Below are positions 3,601-13,568 of a stretch of DNA of 13,711 nucleotides, one piece after another; position 1 is the first letter of the stretch; each line of letters starts with the position of its first letter. Position numbers and translations under genes: made by a program. Source of the stretch: Treponema sp. (lineage in GTDB: Bacteria; Spirochaetota; Spirochaetia; Treponematales; Breznakiellaceae); the NCBI GenBank assembly GCA_031273185.1, contig JAISSG010000026.1:1-13711 (forward strand), read 5' to 3'. Under the pieces are notes generated by a model that saw nothing but the letters and a program-made list of their open reading frames with translations, had not been told where the DNA came from and did not search any database.

Positions 3601-5337
3601 ATGGATAAAACTGCTATTGTCGAGCGGGCAAAGGACTATATTGCCAGGGAACATGATGAAGGCTTCCGGGCGGAAGTGGAAAAGCTCCTCGCCGCAGGGG
3701 ACTGGAAGGAGCTGGAAGACAGGTTCTACCGGAACCTGGAATTCGGCACCGGGGGCCTGCGGGGGGTAATCGGCGGCGGCTACAACCGCATGAATTCCCT
3801 GGTGGTAAAAAGCGCGACCCAGGGGCTGGCGACGTACCTGATCAAGGCGTTCCCCCAGAAAGCCTCGGCGGGCAAGCTGTCTGCGGTCCTCGCCTTTGAC
3901 AGCCGCCACTACTCGGCGGAATTCGCCGAGGCCGCCGCGCTGATCTTTGCCGCCAACGGCATCAAGACGTGGCTTTTCTCGGGCTTGCGGCCCACGCCGG
4001 AACTGTCATTCGCCATACGGCACCTGCACTGCGACACCGGCATCGTGGTGACGGCGAGCCACAACCCGCCCCAGTACAACGGCTACAAGGCGTACTGGAA
4101 CGACGGCTCCCAGGTGATACCCCCCCACGACATTGGCATCATTGACGAAGTGAACAATGTCAAGGACATTAAAGAAATTTCCCGCCAGCAGGCGCTGGAC
4201 AAGGGGCTTTTGGCCGTCATTGACAAGGAAGTTGACGAGCCGTACCAGGCGATGGTAAAGTCCCGGCTTTTCCGCCCCGACCTTATCCGGGCAAAGGCCG
4301 GCGCGGTAAAAATCGTGTACACGCCCCTGCACGGCACCGGGGCCATGCATGTCGAGAAGGTGCTGGGCGACCTGGGGCTGAAGGTGATCACCGTGCCGCA
4401 GCAGCGGGAAGGCAACGGCGATTTTCCCACGGTGTCCTTTCCCAACCCCGAAGAGGCCGCCGCCCTCGACATGGCGATAAAGCTGGGGACGGCTGAAAAG
4501 GCCGACGTGGTAATGGCCACCGACCCCGACGCCGACCGTTTCGGTATCGCCGTCCCGAACAAGCAGGGCACATACACCCTGGTCACGGGAAACCAGATGG
4601 GCGTGCTGATGGCGGACTACATTTTCCTCTCGCTCAAGGAACTGGGCAAATTGCCCGCCAACGCCGCGATGGTCAACTCGATTGTCACGACGGGGATGCA
4701 GAACCGTGTGGCCCGGCATTACGGCGGCGAATGTTTCGAATGCCTTACCGGCTTCAAGTGGATCGCCGACATTATGCGCAAGTGGGAGATCGGCGAGGCG
4801 GGGGCAAAAACATTCGTGTTCGGCACCGAGGAAAGCTACGGTTATCTGGTGGAGACCGAGGTCCGCGACAAGGACGGCGTTTCAGCCGCCGCCCTCACCG
4901 CCGAGATGACCCTGTACTGGCGGAGCAAGGGCAAGAGCCTGCTGGACCGGCTTGACGAGTTATACGCAATCTGCGGCTTCTGGCAGGAGATGGGCATTTC
5001 AAAATATTTCCAGGGGCCGGAGGGCCCGGCGATCATGAAGGGGATAATGGACAAGTACCGCTCCGGCCCGCCCTCGTCATTGGGCGGCATCGCCATCGAC
5101 AAGGTGCGCGACCTGGAAAACGGGGCCGACGGCCTGCCGCCCAGCGACGTGCTGCAGTTTTTTCTTGCCGACGGCGCCGTGGTCAGCGCCCGCCCCAGCG
5201 GCACCGAGCCGAAGATCAAGTTCTACGCCTCGTGCTGCGCCGAGCTTGGCGCGGGCGGGCTGGAAGCCGCGAAAGCCGAAGTTGCCCGCAAGCTGGACGC
5301 GATCAAAAAAGACATCCGTCAAGTTATTGGGGAATAG
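3601..5337 (+). CDS. Phospho-sugar mutase (phosphoglucomutase/phosphomannomutase)
   Basis: This cytoplasmic alpha-D-phosphohexomutase is 578 residues long, the usual size of the bacterial PgcA-type phosphoglucomutases. The family interconverts hexose 1- and 6-phosphates through a phosphoserine. All four family signatures are present: the phosphoserine loop TASHNP with catalytic Ser153; the Mg2+ loop DPDADRFG with Asp308, Asp310 and Asp312; the sugar-specificity loop GTEESYGY (408-415); and the phosphate-binding loop RPSGTEPK (531-538). The enzyme should therefore be active. Whether glucose or mannose phosphate is preferred, or both, cannot be decided here. The ATG follows AGAAGGGGG. The last codons (Ile-Gly-Glu-stop) lie inside a G-rich 7-bp repeat that continues into the next gene 10 nt away, so this gene heads a probable operon with tatT, tatP and the TRAP permease. 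Confidence 0.93.
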   Translation: MDKTAIVERAKDYIAREHDEGFRAEVEKLLAAGDWKELEDRFYRNLEFGTGGLRGVIGGGYNRMNSLVVKSATQGLATYLIKAFPQKASAGKLSAVLAFDSRHYSAEFAEAAALIFAANGIKTWLFSGLRPTPELSFAIRHLHCDTGIVVTASHNPPQYNGYKAYWNDGSQVIPPHDIGIIDEVNNVKDIKEISRQQALDKGLLAVIDKEVDEPYQAMVKSRLFRPDLIRAKAGAVKIVYTPLHGTGAMHVEKVLGDLGLKVITVPQQREGNGDFPTVSFPNPEEAAALDMAIKLGTAEKADVVMATDPDADRFGIAVPNKQGTYTLVTGNQMGVLMADYIFLSLKELGKLPANAAMVNSIVTTGMQNRVARHYGGECFECLTGFKWIADIMRKWEIGEAGAKTFVFGTEESYGYLVETEVRDKDGVSAAALTAEMTLYWRSKGKSLLDRLDELYAICGFWQEMGISKYFQGPEGPAIMKGIMDKYRSGPPSSLGGIAIDKVRDLENGADGLPPSDVLQFFLADGAVVSARPSGTEPKIKFYASCCAELGAGGLEAAKAEVARKLDAIKKDIRQVIGE

Positions 5338-5353
5338 GGAGTGGGGAATGGGG
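5326..5353 (+). repeat. G-rich heptamer repeat, copy 1, bridging mutase stop and tatT start
   Basis: Four consecutive 7-bp units at 5326, 5333, 5340 and 5347 share the pattern A-N-T-(G/A)-GGG, with AATGGGG as the last unit. The mutase stop codon TAG (5335-5337), the tatT purine-rich ribosome binding site and the tatT ATG (5348-5350) all fall inside. The plus strand, which is also the mRNA strand, carries four G runs of 3-4 with loops of 3-4 nt, matching the usual G-quadruplex pattern. Related copies lie at 12857-12912 and 13509-13568. Confidence 0.75.
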
Positions 5354-6298
5354 ATAAGAAAATTGCGTAACATCCTTGGCTTGGTGGTTGTTTCATTAAT
5401 GTTGTTGCATGCGGGCACGGGGTGTTCGGTTAATACGTTGGTGGCAAATGCGCTGACCGGGGACGGGGGGTCGGCGGTGTTTACCGGGGATAATGATCCC
5501 GAACTGGTAGGGGACGCGCTTCCCTTTGCCATCAAAATGTACGAGGCGCTGCTTGACGCAACCCCGAAGCACCAGGGGCTGATGCTCGTCACCGGCTCGC
5601 TCTTTGTGATGTACGCCAACGCCTATATCCAGGGGCCCGCCGAGATACTCCCGCTGGAGGAATGGCAGGCCCGTGACGCGGCGGTGGCGCGGGCAAAGCA
5701 GATGTACCTGCGGGGAAGCGGCATCCTCTACGATGCGCTGGAGGCAAAGTACCGGGGCTTCACCAAAGCCACGGAGCGGGAGGCCGATTTGCAGCGTATG
5801 CTCGGCAGGTGCAAGAAAGCAGACGCTGGCCTGTTGTACTGGGCAGTGGCCGGCGGCCTCGCCGCCTACTCGATAGACGTGCTTGACTTTGACCTGAGCG
5901 CCCGCATACCCGAATGGAAGGCGATGATTTTGCGGGCATACGAACTCGATCCCGGTTACGGGGGCGCGGCGCTGGACGAATTCCTTGTCCTTTTTTACGC
6001 CTCCCTGCCGGAAATGATGGGCGGGGACAAGGCGCAGGCAGAGGTTCACTTTCGGCGGGCGCTGGAAAAGACCGGGGGGAATTCGGCGGGGGCCTACGTC
6101 TCCTACGCCCAGGCGGTCTGCGTTCCCGCCCAGGATTACGAGGCATACAAGGATTGGCTGGAAAAGGCCCTTGCCATCGACCCGGATGCCGACCCGTCGA
6201 CCCGGCTCGTGACGATCATCACCCAGCGGAAGGCGAGATGGCTGCTTGACAACGCATGGAACTACTTTTCCTTCCTTCCTGTTCCCGACAACTACTGA
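5348..6298 (+). CDS. tatT: TRAP transporter T-component lipoprotein (TatT family)
   Basis: This is a 316-residue lipoprotein resembling T. pallidum TatT (Tp0956), a helical protein built from cryptic tetratricopeptide repeats that binds the TRAP substrate-binding protein TatP. The N-terminus has basic residues, a hydrophobic helix (about 9-21) and a lipobox-like GTGC with Cys26 as the lipid-attachment site; spirochaetal lipoboxes are relaxed. The mature part is almost wholly helical, with TPR-like segments such as AEVHFRRALEKTGG and YKDWLEKALAIDPDAD. The start at 5348 was chosen because it yields this signal peptide. A longer reading from 5165 would overlap the mutase gene and give an implausible Pro/Ser/Arg-rich leader. 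The gene lies 10 nt after the mutase and 29 nt before the binding protein. The family and context agree, but TatT proteins diverge strongly, so identity rests partly on neighbours. Confidence 0.85.
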   Translation: MGIRKLRNILGLVVVSLMLLHAGTGCSVNTLVANALTGDGGSAVFTGDNDPELVGDALPFAIKMYEALLDATPKHQGLMLVTGSLFVMYANAYIQGPAEILPLEEWQARDAAVARAKQMYLRGSGILYDALEAKYRGFTKATEREADLQRMLGRCKKADAGLLYWAVAGGLAAYSIDVLDFDLSARIPEWKAMILRAYELDPGYGGAALDEFLVLFYASLPEMMGGDKAQAEVHFRRALEKTGGNSAGAYVSYAQAVCVPAQDYEAYKDWLEKALAIDPDADPSTRLVTIITQRKARWLLDNAWNYFSFLPVPDNY

Positions 6299-6327: not shown

Positions 6328-7359
6328 ATGAAAAAAAGCGCAGCGTTTTTTGCCTTTGTGGTTTTTATCTTTTTTTTCACGCCTGAAGCGGTTTTTGCCC
6401 AGCGGGGCGGCAGGTCCCAGAGCGAGATCATCGAGGTGCGGCTTGCCTCGCCCATGCCCAGGAATTCGGACTGGGGCAGGACACTGGACCGCATAGCCGC
6501 GGAATGCGCAAGGGTGACCAATAACGAGGTGCGGTTTCGTGTTCTCCACGACGGGGTTGAAGGCGGCGAGACAAAGTCGCTTTCCTCCCTTTCCACCGAT
6601 AACATCCAGGCGTCATTGTTTACGTCTTTCGGGCTTTCGCTGTTCTGCCCCGAAATCCTGACCATGAGCGTCCCCTTTATGATCAGAAACGATGCCGAGC
6701 TGGAACAGGTGCTGAAGGAAATTCTGCCGATTCTTGAGGCCCGGATCAACACAACCAATTATGTCGTGCTGGCCTGGTCGAAAGCCGGCTGGGTCAACGT
6801 GTTCTCAAAGGACCCGGTGTTCGTGCCGGACGATTTGCGCAGGCATAAGGTGGCGACCAACCCCGAATCGGACGAGTTGAATTTGGCGTTCAGGACCATG
6901 GGGTTTAACCTTGTGGAAACGGAGATAGTGGACCTTGGAACCAGGCTGGCAAACAACATGATCAACGCCATATACCAGACCCCTGCGGCGGTCGCCCCCA
7001 TTGGGATGCACAGAACCCTGTGCAACATGCTGGACATCCCGATTGCCCCGTTCCTAGGCGCCATCGTCATGAACCGGGTCACGTGGAACAAACTGGGCCC
7101 CAATCGGCAGCGGGAGATTTTACGGGCCACCCAGCGGATTGCCGCGGAGTTTGACGACTTGATGCCAAGAACCGTTGACAATGCGCTGGCGATGATGCAG
7201 AGGGAGGGGCTGAAAATAAACCGGGCGAACGCGGAGCAGCAAGCACTGTGGCACGCCGATCTCCAGCGGGCCATCCCCTCGCTGCTGGGCACGGCTTTTG
7301 ACCGGAATGTATACCAGCGGATCAATGGGATACTTGAGCGATCAAGGAGCGGTCGCTAG
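6328..7359 (+). CDS. tatP: TRAP transporter substrate-binding protein, DctP family (TatP)
   Basis: This is a 343-residue periplasmic binding protein. A signal peptide (Lys-Lys, then a Phe-rich hydrophobic core) ends at a signal peptidase I site after AVFA, residue 24. The mature protein follows the DctP pattern: IIEVRLASPMPRNSDWG at the first strand, a VRFRVLHDGVEGG segment, and the helix-strand region around KVATNPESDELNLAFRTMG (about 172-191). DctP proteins normally bind a carboxylate ligand. The T. pallidum relative Tp0957 (TatP) has been suggested to take a hydrophobic ligand, so the substrate here is open. The start at 6328 is fixed by GGAGGA with a short spacer and by the good signal peptide; an upstream in-frame ATG at 6316 contains that ribosome binding site. 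It sits between tatT and the permease, as expected for a complete TPAT system. Confidence 0.9.
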   Translation: MKKSAAFFAFVVFIFFFTPEAVFAQRGGRSQSEIIEVRLASPMPRNSDWGRTLDRIAAECARVTNNEVRFRVLHDGVEGGETKSLSSLSTDNIQASLFTSFGLSLFCPEILTMSVPFMIRNDAELEQVLKEILPILEARINTTNYVVLAWSKAGWVNVFSKDPVFVPDDLRRHKVATNPESDELNLAFRTMGFNLVETEIVDLGTRLANNMINAIYQTPAAVAPIGMHRTLCNMLDIPIAPFLGAIVMNRVTWNKLGPNRQREILRATQRIAAEFDDLMPRTVDNALAMMQREGLKINRANAEQQALWHADLQRAIPSLLGTAFDRNVYQRINGILERSRSGR

Positions 7360-7363
7360 GCAC

Positions 7364-9262
7364 ATGGCCGGAAGGGATATTTCAGCGCTTAGAGCCCTCG
7401 GCTGGGTTGAAAAGGGTATCTGTTACGGTTCCCTGTCCCTGCTTGCGCTGATCCCCTTTGCGGAGATGATATTGCGCCGCTTCAGCCTGGCAATCCCGGC
7501 GTCAAAATCAATAATGGTCCATCTCTTCCTGGTGCTGGGTTTTTTCGCCTCCATGCTCACGGTAAAATTCGGGGAGCATATATCGATAGCTGTCATTCAT
7601 TACATCAAGAACGACAAGGCAAAGCAGGCTCTGGAATTCTCAAGAACCCTTCTTTCGGTTTTTATCCTGAGCGTCCTGGCGTGGAACTGCATTTCGTATA
7701 TCAAGCATGGCCTTATGGGAAGGTCCGTCGGGTTTATACCTGAGCGGGTATTTGCCGCGGCCATGCCGCTTGGCTATATCGTGATCGCCCTGCGCTTTGC
7801 CCTAAAGCCCCAGGGAAAGCGGGAGAGGGTTATGGCCCTTGCGGCGATCCTGCTTGGCACTGTCGCGGCGCTTCCTGCAATCGCAAAAATAATCTGGGGC
7901 TTTGATCCGCCCGAGCCGTTTTTCTCCTGGGTAAACTCCCTGTACGACATAGCCTGGCTCATCCGCCTTCCCGCGATACTGTTCCTGATCCTGGCGGCGC
8001 TTTTGGGCATGCCGATTTTTGTGGCCATCGGCGGCATCGCCATGATCGCGCTGCAGGCGGCGGGGCGGGAGCCGGAGGCGGCCCCCATCCAGATTTTTTC
8101 CGCGCTGACCGAGGCGGACATCATCGCCATCCCCCTCTTTACCCTTACCGGCTTTTTCCTTTCGGAGAGCAACGCGGGCCAGCGGCTTGTTAACGCTTAC
8201 CGGCTGTTTCTTGGCTGGCTGCCCGGCGGCATGATCATCACCATCATCGTCATCTGCGCTTTTTTCAGCTCGTTTACCGGGGCTTCCGGGGTAACGATAC
8301 TCGCCCTTGGCGGCATACTGTACAAGATGATGAACGAAAACAGGTACCCCGAGCGTTTTTCCATAGGGCTGCTCACCTCTGCCGGGGGCGTTGGCCTGAT
8401 GTTCCCCCCCAGCCTTCCTATTATACTGGTTGGCATCACCAGCAGCACGATCCTGCACTTCATGAACGTGCGTACCTCTTACGACATTAAGCATTTTTTT
8501 GCCGGGGCAATTATCCCCGGGTTGCTGTTGGTGCTGGCGATGATTGCCACCAGCCTCGTGCTTTCGTCGAAAGTCAAAGTGCCCAGGGAAACTTTTGAGC
8601 CGGGGAAGGCGCTGCGCTCCCTCAGGGAATCCGCCTTTGAAATTTTGCTGCCAGTCATTCTGATGCTGGGCTATTTTACCGGGCTGTTCACGCTGGTGGA
8701 GGCCAGCGCGGTATCGGTAATCTATGTGGTAATCGTCGAGGTTTTTATCAAGAAGGATATCGCCGTCGCCGAAATACCGAAGGTTTTCCTGAAAGCCGTG
8801 CCGATCATCGGCGGGGTGCTGGCGATACTGGCAATGGCGAAGGCCCTTTCCTACGCCATCATCGATTCCGGCATACCTGAAAATTTCACTACCTGGATGC
8901 AGGGCGCGGTGCAGTCGAAATACGTTTTCCTTTTGCTGCTGAATCTTGCCCTGCTGGTGGTTGGCTGCCTGATGGACATATTCTCGGCAATCATGGTTGT
9001 GCTTCCCCTCATCGTCCCCCTGGGGTTTGCCTACGGGATCGATCCCGTGCATCTTGGGATCATCTTTATCATGAACCTGGAAGTCGGCTTTCTGACCCCG
9101 CCTGTCGGGATGAACCTCTTCCTTGCAAGCTACCGTTTCGAGAAGCCCTTCGCGGAAATATGCCGCTGCGTGCTGCCCTACATCCTAATCCAGTTTGCCG
9201 TGGTACTGCTCGTTACCTACATCCCCTGGCTTTCAACCTGGCTGCCCGGATTCTTTAATTAG
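7364..9262 (+). CDS. Fused TRAP transporter permease DctQ-DctM
   Basis: This inner-membrane permease is about 632 residues long and joins the small (DctQ, about residues 15-180, four helices) and large (DctM, about 190-630) TRAP subunits. TRAP systems use ion gradients rather than ATP to import the ligand delivered by the binding protein. DctM signatures are visible: FSSFTGASGVTILALGGI near residue 302, GLMFPPSLPIILVG near 343, and NLEVGFLTPPVGMNLFL near 571. The start is uncertain. The ATG at 7364 is 4 nt after the tatP stop, with AAGGAG 14 nt upstream, which is rather far. An ATG at 7325 overlapping tatP, or a TTG at 7298, would add 13 or 22 residues before the conserved part. The first residues of the 7364 version precede the first hydrophobic helix sensibly. 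Fused QM permeases are common in spirochaetes, including Tp0958. Confidence 0.92.
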   Translation: MAGRDISALRALGWVEKGICYGSLSLLALIPFAEMILRRFSLAIPASKSIMVHLFLVLGFFASMLTVKFGEHISIAVIHYIKNDKAKQALEFSRTLLSVFILSVLAWNCISYIKHGLMGRSVGFIPERVFAAAMPLGYIVIALRFALKPQGKRERVMALAAILLGTVAALPAIAKIIWGFDPPEPFFSWVNSLYDIAWLIRLPAILFLILAALLGMPIFVAIGGIAMIALQAAGREPEAAPIQIFSALTEADIIAIPLFTLTGFFLSESNAGQRLVNAYRLFLGWLPGGMIITIIVICAFFSSFTGASGVTILALGGILYKMMNENRYPERFSIGLLTSAGGVGLMFPPSLPIILVGITSSTILHFMNVRTSYDIKHFFAGAIIPGLLLVLAMIATSLVLSSKVKVPRETFEPGKALRSLRESAFEILLPVILMLGYFTGLFTLVEASAVSVIYVVIVEVFIKKDIAVAEIPKVFLKAVPIIGGVLAILAMAKALSYAIIDSGIPENFTTWMQGAVQSKYVFLLLLNLALLVVGCLMDIFSAIMVVLPLIVPLGFAYGIDPVHLGIIFIMNLEVGFLTPPVGMNLFLASYRFEKPFAEICRCVLPYILIQFAVVLLVTYIPWLSTWLPGFFN

Positions 9263-12856: not shown

Positions 12857-12912
12857 TAGGGAACAGGGAAGTGAACAACTATCCCCAGTCCCTAACTCCT
12901 GGCCCCGATCCC
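12857..12912. repeat. G/C-rich heptamer repeat, copy 2, hairpin between convergent genes
   Basis: A short G-rich arm (TAGGGAACAGGGA, 12857-12869) is followed by a C-rich arm of 7-bp units beginning CCCCAGT at 12883, 12890, 12897 and 12904. The arms can pair imperfectly (TAGGGA with TCCCTA, AGGGA with TCCCC). Read on the minus strand, the C-rich arm matches the G-rich arm of copy 3. A second small hairpin (GATCC/GGATC, 12907-12920) follows directly. It lies between the convergent stops of the dCMP deaminase and AMMECR1 genes and may act as a transcription barrier, but has no T tract. Confidence 0.6.
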
Positions 12913-13504: not shown

Positions 13505-13508
13505 TAAC

Positions 13509-13568
13509 GGGGACTGGGGACTAGGGAATGGGGACTGGGAAGGCTGACATCTTTCCCCAATCCCCAGT
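13509..13568. repeat. G-rich heptamer repeat, copy 3, with hairpin arm
   Basis: On the plus strand four 7-bp units start at 13509, 13516, 13523 and 13530 (GGGGACT three times and AGGGAAT once), then GGGAAGG. After a short loop come CCCCAAT (13555-13561) and CCCCAGT (13562-13568). The inner part folds as a strong hairpin, roughly 13530-13543 with 13551-13565. The G-rich side also fits a four-run G-quadruplex pattern. It lies between the AMMECR1 start and the IS end. Confidence 0.7.

Follow-up and report, generated by a model that had tools for sequence, protein, structure and literature searches.

A G-rich heptamer array at a phosphohexomutase–tatT junction in Treponema: a probable solo copy of a dispersed repeat in the ribosome-binding region of a transporter gene

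Introduction

The cyanobacterial STRR (short tandemly repeated repetitive) heptamers are short tandem units dispersed in intergenic regions, and the Treponema array considered here, likened to them by description only, is similar in being one of a set of dispersed tandem heptamers. Rickettsia palindromic elements, which insert in frame into genes, resemble, again by description, one further Treponema locus discussed below (L297 of genome G002) in that palindromic repeats are tolerated within coding sequence, although the Treponema in-frame cases, unlike those of Rickettsia, lie at N-termini beside starts.

G-rich heptamers of the forms GGGNATC and GGGGA(C/T)T were described in Xanthomonas and Nostoc by Rehm et al. 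2015 (PMC4692102), and the accessible part of that paper already sets out the class, its quadruplex potential and its placement at stop codons, while finding no regulatory role and leaving function open. As far as that part goes, the repeats are like those of Treponema in being G-run heptamers, often about four to an array, dispersed, mostly intergenic and with quadruplex potential, and in often forming convergent pairs (in Xanthomonas) and lying near or across stop codons on the coding strand. They differ in their host organisms, in that Treponema units are mixed and vary by genome, and in that start-proximal arrays there have their G runs mainly on the non-coding strand, whereas here a coding-strand array reaches a start and can supply its Shine-Dalgarno (SD) sequence. 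The TAACTGA heptamers of marine Beggiatoaceae (PMC4679880, seen in part) form arrays within several nucleotides 5' of start codons and have been proposed to act in translation; they have little SD character, whereas the G-rich Treponema units are SD-like. Bacterial 5'UTR RNA quadruplexes (PMC11087576, likewise seen in part) share a G-run tract near a start, the evidence coming from reporters in that work and from sequence alone in the present case.

The array in question lies between a phosphohexomutase gene and tatT, and the reading favoured here, which is considered likely though well short of certain, is that a solo copy of a dispersed heptamer repeat has overprinted the tatT ribosome-binding region, with initiation by the ordinary SD route at one of two candidate start codons, ATG 5348 or TTG 5363.

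The locus and its heptamer array

The window, meaning the whole stretch of 13,711 nt that was analysed (Treponema sp., contig JAISSG010000026.1), carries in 5' to 3' order a phosphohexomutase gene followed by the three genes of a TRAP transporter, namely tatT, a substrate-binding protein gene and a DctQM permease gene. The relevant features are as follows.

3601–5337, plus strand: phosphohexomutase gene, PGM_PMM domains I–IV, C-terminal end ...DIRQVIGE-TAG (ORF, Pfam)
5335–5337, plus strand: mutase stop codon TAG (ORF, sequence reading)
5328–5355, plus strand: four-unit G-rich heptamer array (sequence reading, Tandem Repeats Finder, shuffles)
5329–5353, plus strand: predicted canonical G-quadruplex motif, G runs 4-3-4-4, loops AATA, AGT and AAT (4-3-3 nt)
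5348–6298, plus strand: tatT, TRAP transporter T-component (PF16811), with a lipoprotein-like signal and its Cys codon at 5423–5425 (ORF, Pfam)
6328–7359, plus strand: TRAP substrate-binding protein gene (DctP family), 3' of tatT (ORF, Pfam)
7298–9262, plus strand: fused DctQ–DctM TRAP permease gene, start codon position tentative (ORF, Pfam)

DctQ and DctM form a single ORF (7298–9262), the longest listed form of which overlaps the 3' end of the binding-protein gene. Those TatT relatives that are named, among the matches listed, come from Treponema and other spirochete records, and we take their source, from the isolate codes, to be the termite gut.

The mutase–tatT junction reads ATTGGGGAATAGGGAGTGGGGAATGGGGATAAGAAAATTG, and the letters of the array region, ATTGGGGAATAGGGAGTGGGGAATGGGGATAAG, divide into the units TGGGGAA (5328–5334), TAGGGAG (5335–5341), TGGGGAA (5342–5348) and TGGGGAT (5349–5355). 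The first-pass annotation had seen four 7-bp G-rich units here but placed them two bases too early, at 5326–5353. Its observation is partly confirmed: the period of seven is real, Tandem Repeats Finder giving 3.9 copies over 5328–5354, and the window has two sites with four G runs at that period (5330 and 13510), against a mean of 0.01 in shuffled sequence (in a second shuffle test 0.027 were expected, any site at all appearing in 7 of 300 shuffles). The annotation's runs of 3–4 G with loops of 3–4 nt also hold good, and the motif has the highest positive (plus-strand G) G4Hunter score of the window, 2.32. Generic quadruplex motifs are, however, no more frequent in the window than chance would give (2 against 1.5 ± 1.25), which implies that the signal lies in the period and not in the quadruplex. 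The predicted RNA fold of the junction region is no better than that of shuffles (z +0.30), and an Rfam search of the window returned no family at gathering score. A single weak phage match (87% over the 31-base array, E 0.07) was disregarded.

Set against the class described by Rehm et al. (PMC4692102, accessible part), the array has tandem heptamers, intact GGG and about four units, and it has a stop codon on the coding strand within it (5335–5337), where the class calls for one overlapping or within 50 bp. It runs contrary to one reported preference, which is not part of the strict definition: near starts the class tends to have its G on the non-coding strand, whereas at the tatT start the G lies on the coding strand.

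Orthologous junctions and the end of the mutase gene

Of 80 loci, 50 have the mutase gene co-oriented with tatT and upstream of it, and the 27 of these with a gap of 420 nt or less were the junctions read, leaving out 23 pairs that lie farther apart; none of the 27 contains an array. The exact four-run pattern, which shorter or mutated arrays would escape, is present in 5 of the 80 loci and never at tatT. A genus search yielded 30 loci, largely repeating the same genomes, and the 20 of them read as DNA (the other 10 being read as protein) likewise have no array at the junction. It must be borne in mind that this absence covers relatives up to about 76% TatT identity, the DNA of the two closest, P0001 (94%) and P0003 (88%), lying outside the comparison. 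Nor is the quadruplex motif conserved: it is missing from the 27 close junctions, and the exact pattern from tatT in all 80 loci. The comparison of orthologous junctions, suggested earlier as a check, supports a dispersed repeat.

A different picture emerges for the end of the mutase gene. It had been held that the repeat encodes the last mutase codons and the stop, and the letters can indeed be read that way, but I-G-(D/E)-stop is the gene's own ending: among 50 relatives with the end in view, VIGD occurs in 19 and VIGE in 7, and the third-last codon (counting the stop) is GGG in 11, followed in each by GAN and a stop, and scanning these loci for the pattern revealed no array at that place. 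The annotation had named the same codons in relatives without the repeat period as something that would tell against it, and for the mutase end that is what is found. DNA homology in BLAST moreover extends to query position 47 or 48 in four genomes (G007, G005, G029 and G023), position 48 being 5337, the final base of the stop. On these two grounds unit 1 is native mutase sequence older than the repeat, and the stop itself is probably older too; the remaining units are read as the repeat proper.

A dispersed family of heptamer arrays and paired elements

For wider comparison, 39 genomes of one genus were searched, the reference being G001, which contains locus L001 and a mutase 90% identical to that of the window. 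A loose period-7 G-run pattern occurs in 30 of the 39, at 1 to 415 overlapping hits each (poly-G tracts included), and is missing from the other 9. A stricter unit pattern exceeds its reversed control in G001 (86 against 18), G008 (98 against 10), G011 (33 against 15) and, at very low numbers, G029 (2 against 0); it is not enriched in G018 (25 against 46) and gives no hit in G032. Both abundance and unit type differ between genomes, the units being GGGAGTR/GGGAATR, GGGACTR or GGGATCR/GGGACCR.

In a BLAST search of the same genomes with the junction, the array alone matches at least 15 unlinked places at 86–96% identity and one more at 82%, within query positions 29–76 and in seven genomes (G001, G002, G006, G008, G010, G023 and G026), a lower bound because at most 12 candidates were scored per genome; against L001 positions 881–904, 22 of 24 letters are identical. 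Many dispersed copies are to be seen in relatives such as G001, G002, G003 and G008. In the stretches read of the first three there are 72 tracts of three or more runs, some being G-rich sequence of an unrelated kind, together with 17 inverted pairs; 13 pairs enclose a core of 55–62 bp, and a crude ORF rule puts ten of the pairs in an open frame.

The core between the inverted heptamer arms often has inverted ends of its own, of the form GTTGTTCG...CGAACAAC, as at L142, L150, L155 and L159 (G002), L001 (G001) and L164, L167 and L174 (G003), and by reading it occurs in both orientations. An attC/integron origin for it, weighed against the general layout of attC sites, was dropped, and a relaxed Rfam search of a related element gave 24 microRNA-family rows and one cyanobacterial sRNA, all below gathering score and attributed to chance.

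The window has two clear heptamer sites and one degraded one, those other than the tatT array being:

13507–13568, no strand assigned: second site, G-rich arm 13509–13539 facing a C-rich arm near 13553–13568
12857–12906, no strand assigned: third site, probably degraded, with a short G-arm, a possible core-end remnant at 12872–12885 (minus strand) and a C-rich arm

A search of the window for core ends gave 6 matches with up to 3 mismatches against 4.2 expected, that at 12872–12885 being the only one with a single mismatch. For the array at tatT, no inverted C-rich partner was found in 5250–5420, nor any by reading, so that the facing arm and core of the inverted-pair Treponema element are both lacking, and the most plausible reading of the array is a solo arm belonging to the G-rich heptamer family dispersed in related Treponema genomes. 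Sequence comparison shows its close resemblance to that family and its absence from the orthologous junctions read.

The alternative that fares best is growth in place, in which the mutase end GGGGAATAG or a resident SD seeded a tract that expanded by slippage, no mobile copy having arrived. This would fit a native unit 1 in phase with the remaining units, and there is a suggestive precedent in G029, where the ortholog of a G001 locus (L271, below) has a single native TGGGGAG in place of about four units. The mixed unit types, however, are those of unlinked arrays, the agreement with L001 is close, and inverted pairs with a core are not a product of slippage, so growth in place is regarded as rather unlikely, though it deserves to be taken seriously.

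The start of tatT

If a solo copy did land at the junction, the question is what it contributes to tatT, for which two starts come into consideration.

5348–5350, plus strand: candidate start codon ATG, inside the array (sequence reading)
5363–5365, plus strand: candidate start codon TTG, shortly 3' of the array and in frame with ATG 5348 (first residue of orthologs, distance to Cys)
5335–5342, plus strand: candidate SD UAGGGAGU for ATG 5348, 5-nt spacing, −7.4 kcal/mol
5350–5354, plus strand: candidate SD GGGGA for TTG 5363, 8-nt spacing, −5.5 kcal/mol

Both starts have SD complementarity 4–11 nt upstream, as judged by pairing with the anti-SD letters. The lipobox Cys is 25 codons from ATG 5348 and 20 from TTG 5363, and in 71 tatT relatives the median is 20 codons and the 90th percentile 22, figures biased toward short leaders by taking the ATG nearest the Cys as the start. 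Among the matches listed, the closest TatT proteins, P0001 and P0003, begin MRNIL, with a first residue matching TTG 5363; their source may write M for whichever start codon is used, as the pair P0098/P0099 suggests. The database protein encoded by the window itself (P0002) begins, by reading, at GTG 5441, which indicates that automated start calls at such array sites are unreliable. On these comparisons TTG 5363 is at least as likely a start as ATG 5348, with relatives favouring the former. The ATG credited to the array is therefore present in it but is one of two plausible starts, the other lying just outside, whereas the best SD candidate for tatT does fall within the array, as had been claimed, whichever codon is used.

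It could be argued that the array is a passenger tolerated in a short spacer, with no part in tatT translation, both start and signals lying downstream. TTG 5363 does fit the N-termini and Cys distances of orthologs, and an SD of −4 kcal/mol or better is found in 43 of the 71 relatives and not in the other 28, so the array's SD may be dispensable. Yet the best SD for TTG 5363 is the last G run of the array itself, and the letters between array and TTG, TAAGAAAA, give little SD potential, which makes a passenger role unlikely.

Proposed mode of action

Under the favoured reading, a solo heptamer copy overprinting the ribosome-binding region, the array sits in phase on the last codons of the mutase (TGGGGAA TAG), fills the gap from the mutase stop to tatT, and would drive tatT initiation by ordinary SD pairing on its G-rich units. 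Since the mutase stop lies within the array, ribosomes finishing the mutase would cover and melt it, and translation of tatT would probably be coupled to termination 10 nt upstream of ATG 5348. Arrays of this kind would suit a stop–SD–start role because every unit contains an SD-like GGGGA or GGGAG, TAGGGAN offers a stop and GAATG or GAGTG a start.

A G-quadruplex at the array is possible, and the first-pass annotation had gone further in proposing that the folded G runs conceal the SD and ATG of tatT, so that its translation would depend on cation, temperature or a helicase. A canonical motif with the top positive G4Hunter score of the window is certainly there, the region's own fold is not stronger than that of shuffled sequence, and K+-dependent quadruplexes have been obtained with DNA oligonucleotides of comparable heptamers (PMC4692102). 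Such a switch is nevertheless thought very unlikely: the array is missing from the orthologous junctions read, generic quadruplex motifs are no commoner in the window than in shuffles, and ribosomes at the mutase stop would occupy the site, so that a quadruplex would matter only if upstream translation failed. In addition, RNA quadruplexes in 5'UTRs raised translation in vitro and in E. coli, in the part of PMC11087576 available, which is the opposite of simple hiding.

The interpretation offered by that annotation is, as a whole, partly supported. What it said of a dispersed repeat captured on a translation start is borne out by the unlinked matches, the 27 junctions without an array, the SD candidates and the DNA-level parallels described below, and the array belongs, to judge from its letters, to a repeat class already described and sits where it would overprint a gene start.

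Placement of arrays relative to stops and starts

Placement was scored for 111 distinct arrays, a non-random set made up of strict-pattern sites and 20 unselected contig starts of G001, stretches of ten G002 contigs taken without selection, stretches of G003 that were for the most part selected, and 9 selected regions of G008. Stop codons were counted from about −24 to +30 nt of the array start, for open frames of 150 aa or more under a crude ORF rule. The G-rich (sense) strand has 29 of them and the opposite strand 2; a TAG inside the array accounts for 14 of the 29, and a single array contributes two. Two earlier, overlapping counts gave 10 against 0 of 55 and 19 against 4 of 61. Stops at or before the array start number 15, and in 7 cases the distance is exactly 4 nt.

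This placement agrees with what the accessible part of PMC4692102 states. If the arms of paired elements point inward, a strand rule follows by geometry, which could explain the published preference for coding-strand G after stops and non-coding-strand G before starts. It should be added that an open frame of 80 aa or more encloses 30 of 61 arrays; with the ten pairs in open frames, this means either that many arrays lie away from gene junctions or that the ORF rule misfires.

Starts are a different matter. Coding-strand arrays were found at the next start in 3 of 55 cases (−30 to 50 nt, all TTG of unverified ORFs; antisense 7 of 55) and within 30 nt of a start in 3 of 61 (antisense 5 of 61). 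The position at tatT had been called unusual; as regards the stop codon it is not, being the stated preference of the class (PMC4692102, same part), but an array that reaches the next start is indeed rarer.

A role of arrays after stops at the level of DNA or transcription (a pause, terminator, recombination or replication signal) would account for the strong sense-strand bias seen in the 111 arrays and in the accessible part of PMC4692102, but is very unlikely here, the tatT array being solo without a C-rich partner, its region folding no better than shuffles, and the bias itself perhaps following from the inward-pointing arms.

Parallel cases in other genes

At L271 (G001) a VWA-domain gene has its stop TAG inside GGGAGTGGGGAGTAGGGAGTGGGGAATAAACC, and the next gene, for a TPR protein with a lipoprotein-like leader, could start at a GTG in the array (SD energy −7.3) or at an ATG 15 nt after it (−5.5); the 87% identical ortholog L309 (G029) has a single TGGGGAG as SD before GTGAGG (−7.8). 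At L286 (G001) an SBP_bac_5 gene ends in a TAG whose G is the first letter of the array, and the following permease gene (BPD_transp_1) has a single start codon 5' of its conserved part, an ATG 6 nt beyond the array; about 25 residues 5' of the conserved part, C-rich arm included, have no counterpart in most orthologs, and by reading no array is present at the junction in 10 of the 11 orthologs listed (L298–L307). In the eleventh, L297 (G002), the ATG lies 3 nt after the upstream stop and the permease ORF runs in frame through the whole element (MGIGDWGLGTGERC...KPQSPVPSPQSL...). With the L271 and L286 starts as we infer them, three array junctions in G001 and G002 thus overlap or adjoin predicted starts or encode a predicted N-terminus. 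A further sense-strand match at a start, the TTG of L265, lies beside a likely paired element and was not counted.

Compared with most orthologs listed, the paired element at L297 (about 1345–1540) lengthens the leader of the OppB-like permease by about 50 residues. At L182 of G006 (about 2001–2027) an array lies inside an ORF, apparently in frame, before a catalytic motif; by reading the ORF resembles a PrmC/HemK methyltransferase, to judge from the motif of that family.

At the protein level, a count was made of the six-residue peptides that a four-unit array could encode. Five of 120 TatT proteins (P0067, P0074, P0089, P0106 and P0118; the 120 are those listed of 2017 matches) have 26 such peptides between them within their first 60 residues, 25 of the 26 reading the C-rich strand; there is none in the rest of TatT, in 120 TatP or in 120 mutases, again those listed. 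An earlier form of the test, in which the window with its untranslated leader was also counted, yielded 32 N-terminal hits against a shuffled mean of 0.12, and none at 34,442 positions of mature parts. The N-termini are database gene calls, part of which may be untranslated. No corresponding DNA was found by eye in 36 loci (the best places, 163 of 195 genomes being matched), so these heptamer-coded N-termini stand at the protein level. Residue identity at lag 7 is also high in 109 TatT N-termini (z 11.4), but lag 3 is nearly as high (z 10.5), lag 8 stands out in the mutases, and even the mature part of TatT shows a small excess at lag 7 (0.087 against 0.057–0.063), for which reasons the exact six-residue test was relied on and lag 7 treated as suggestive.

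Taken together, these cases allow the tentative suggestion that G-rich heptamer elements may be portable stop–SD–start cassettes, landing or growing at junctions, with tatT a recurrent target. If so, they would repeatedly replace native starts and even signal peptides, a dispersed repeat thereby rewiring translational coupling in operons, and this would be a possible route by which such a repeat determines where a gene starts, what leader peptide it has and how it is coupled. Repeated takeover of starts and N-termini looks new, being absent from the open-literature matches listed; heptamer repeats of termite Treponema do not appear among the literature matches listed, which does not prove their absence. 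Start-overprinting arrays would also give a directly testable function to repeats whose function is left open in the accessible part of PMC4692102.

Four further TatT proteins (P0030, P0070, P0091 and P0101) have N-termini with a 7-residue periodicity but another composition, and in all nine the N-terminus and signal-peptide core look like translated heptamer arrays.
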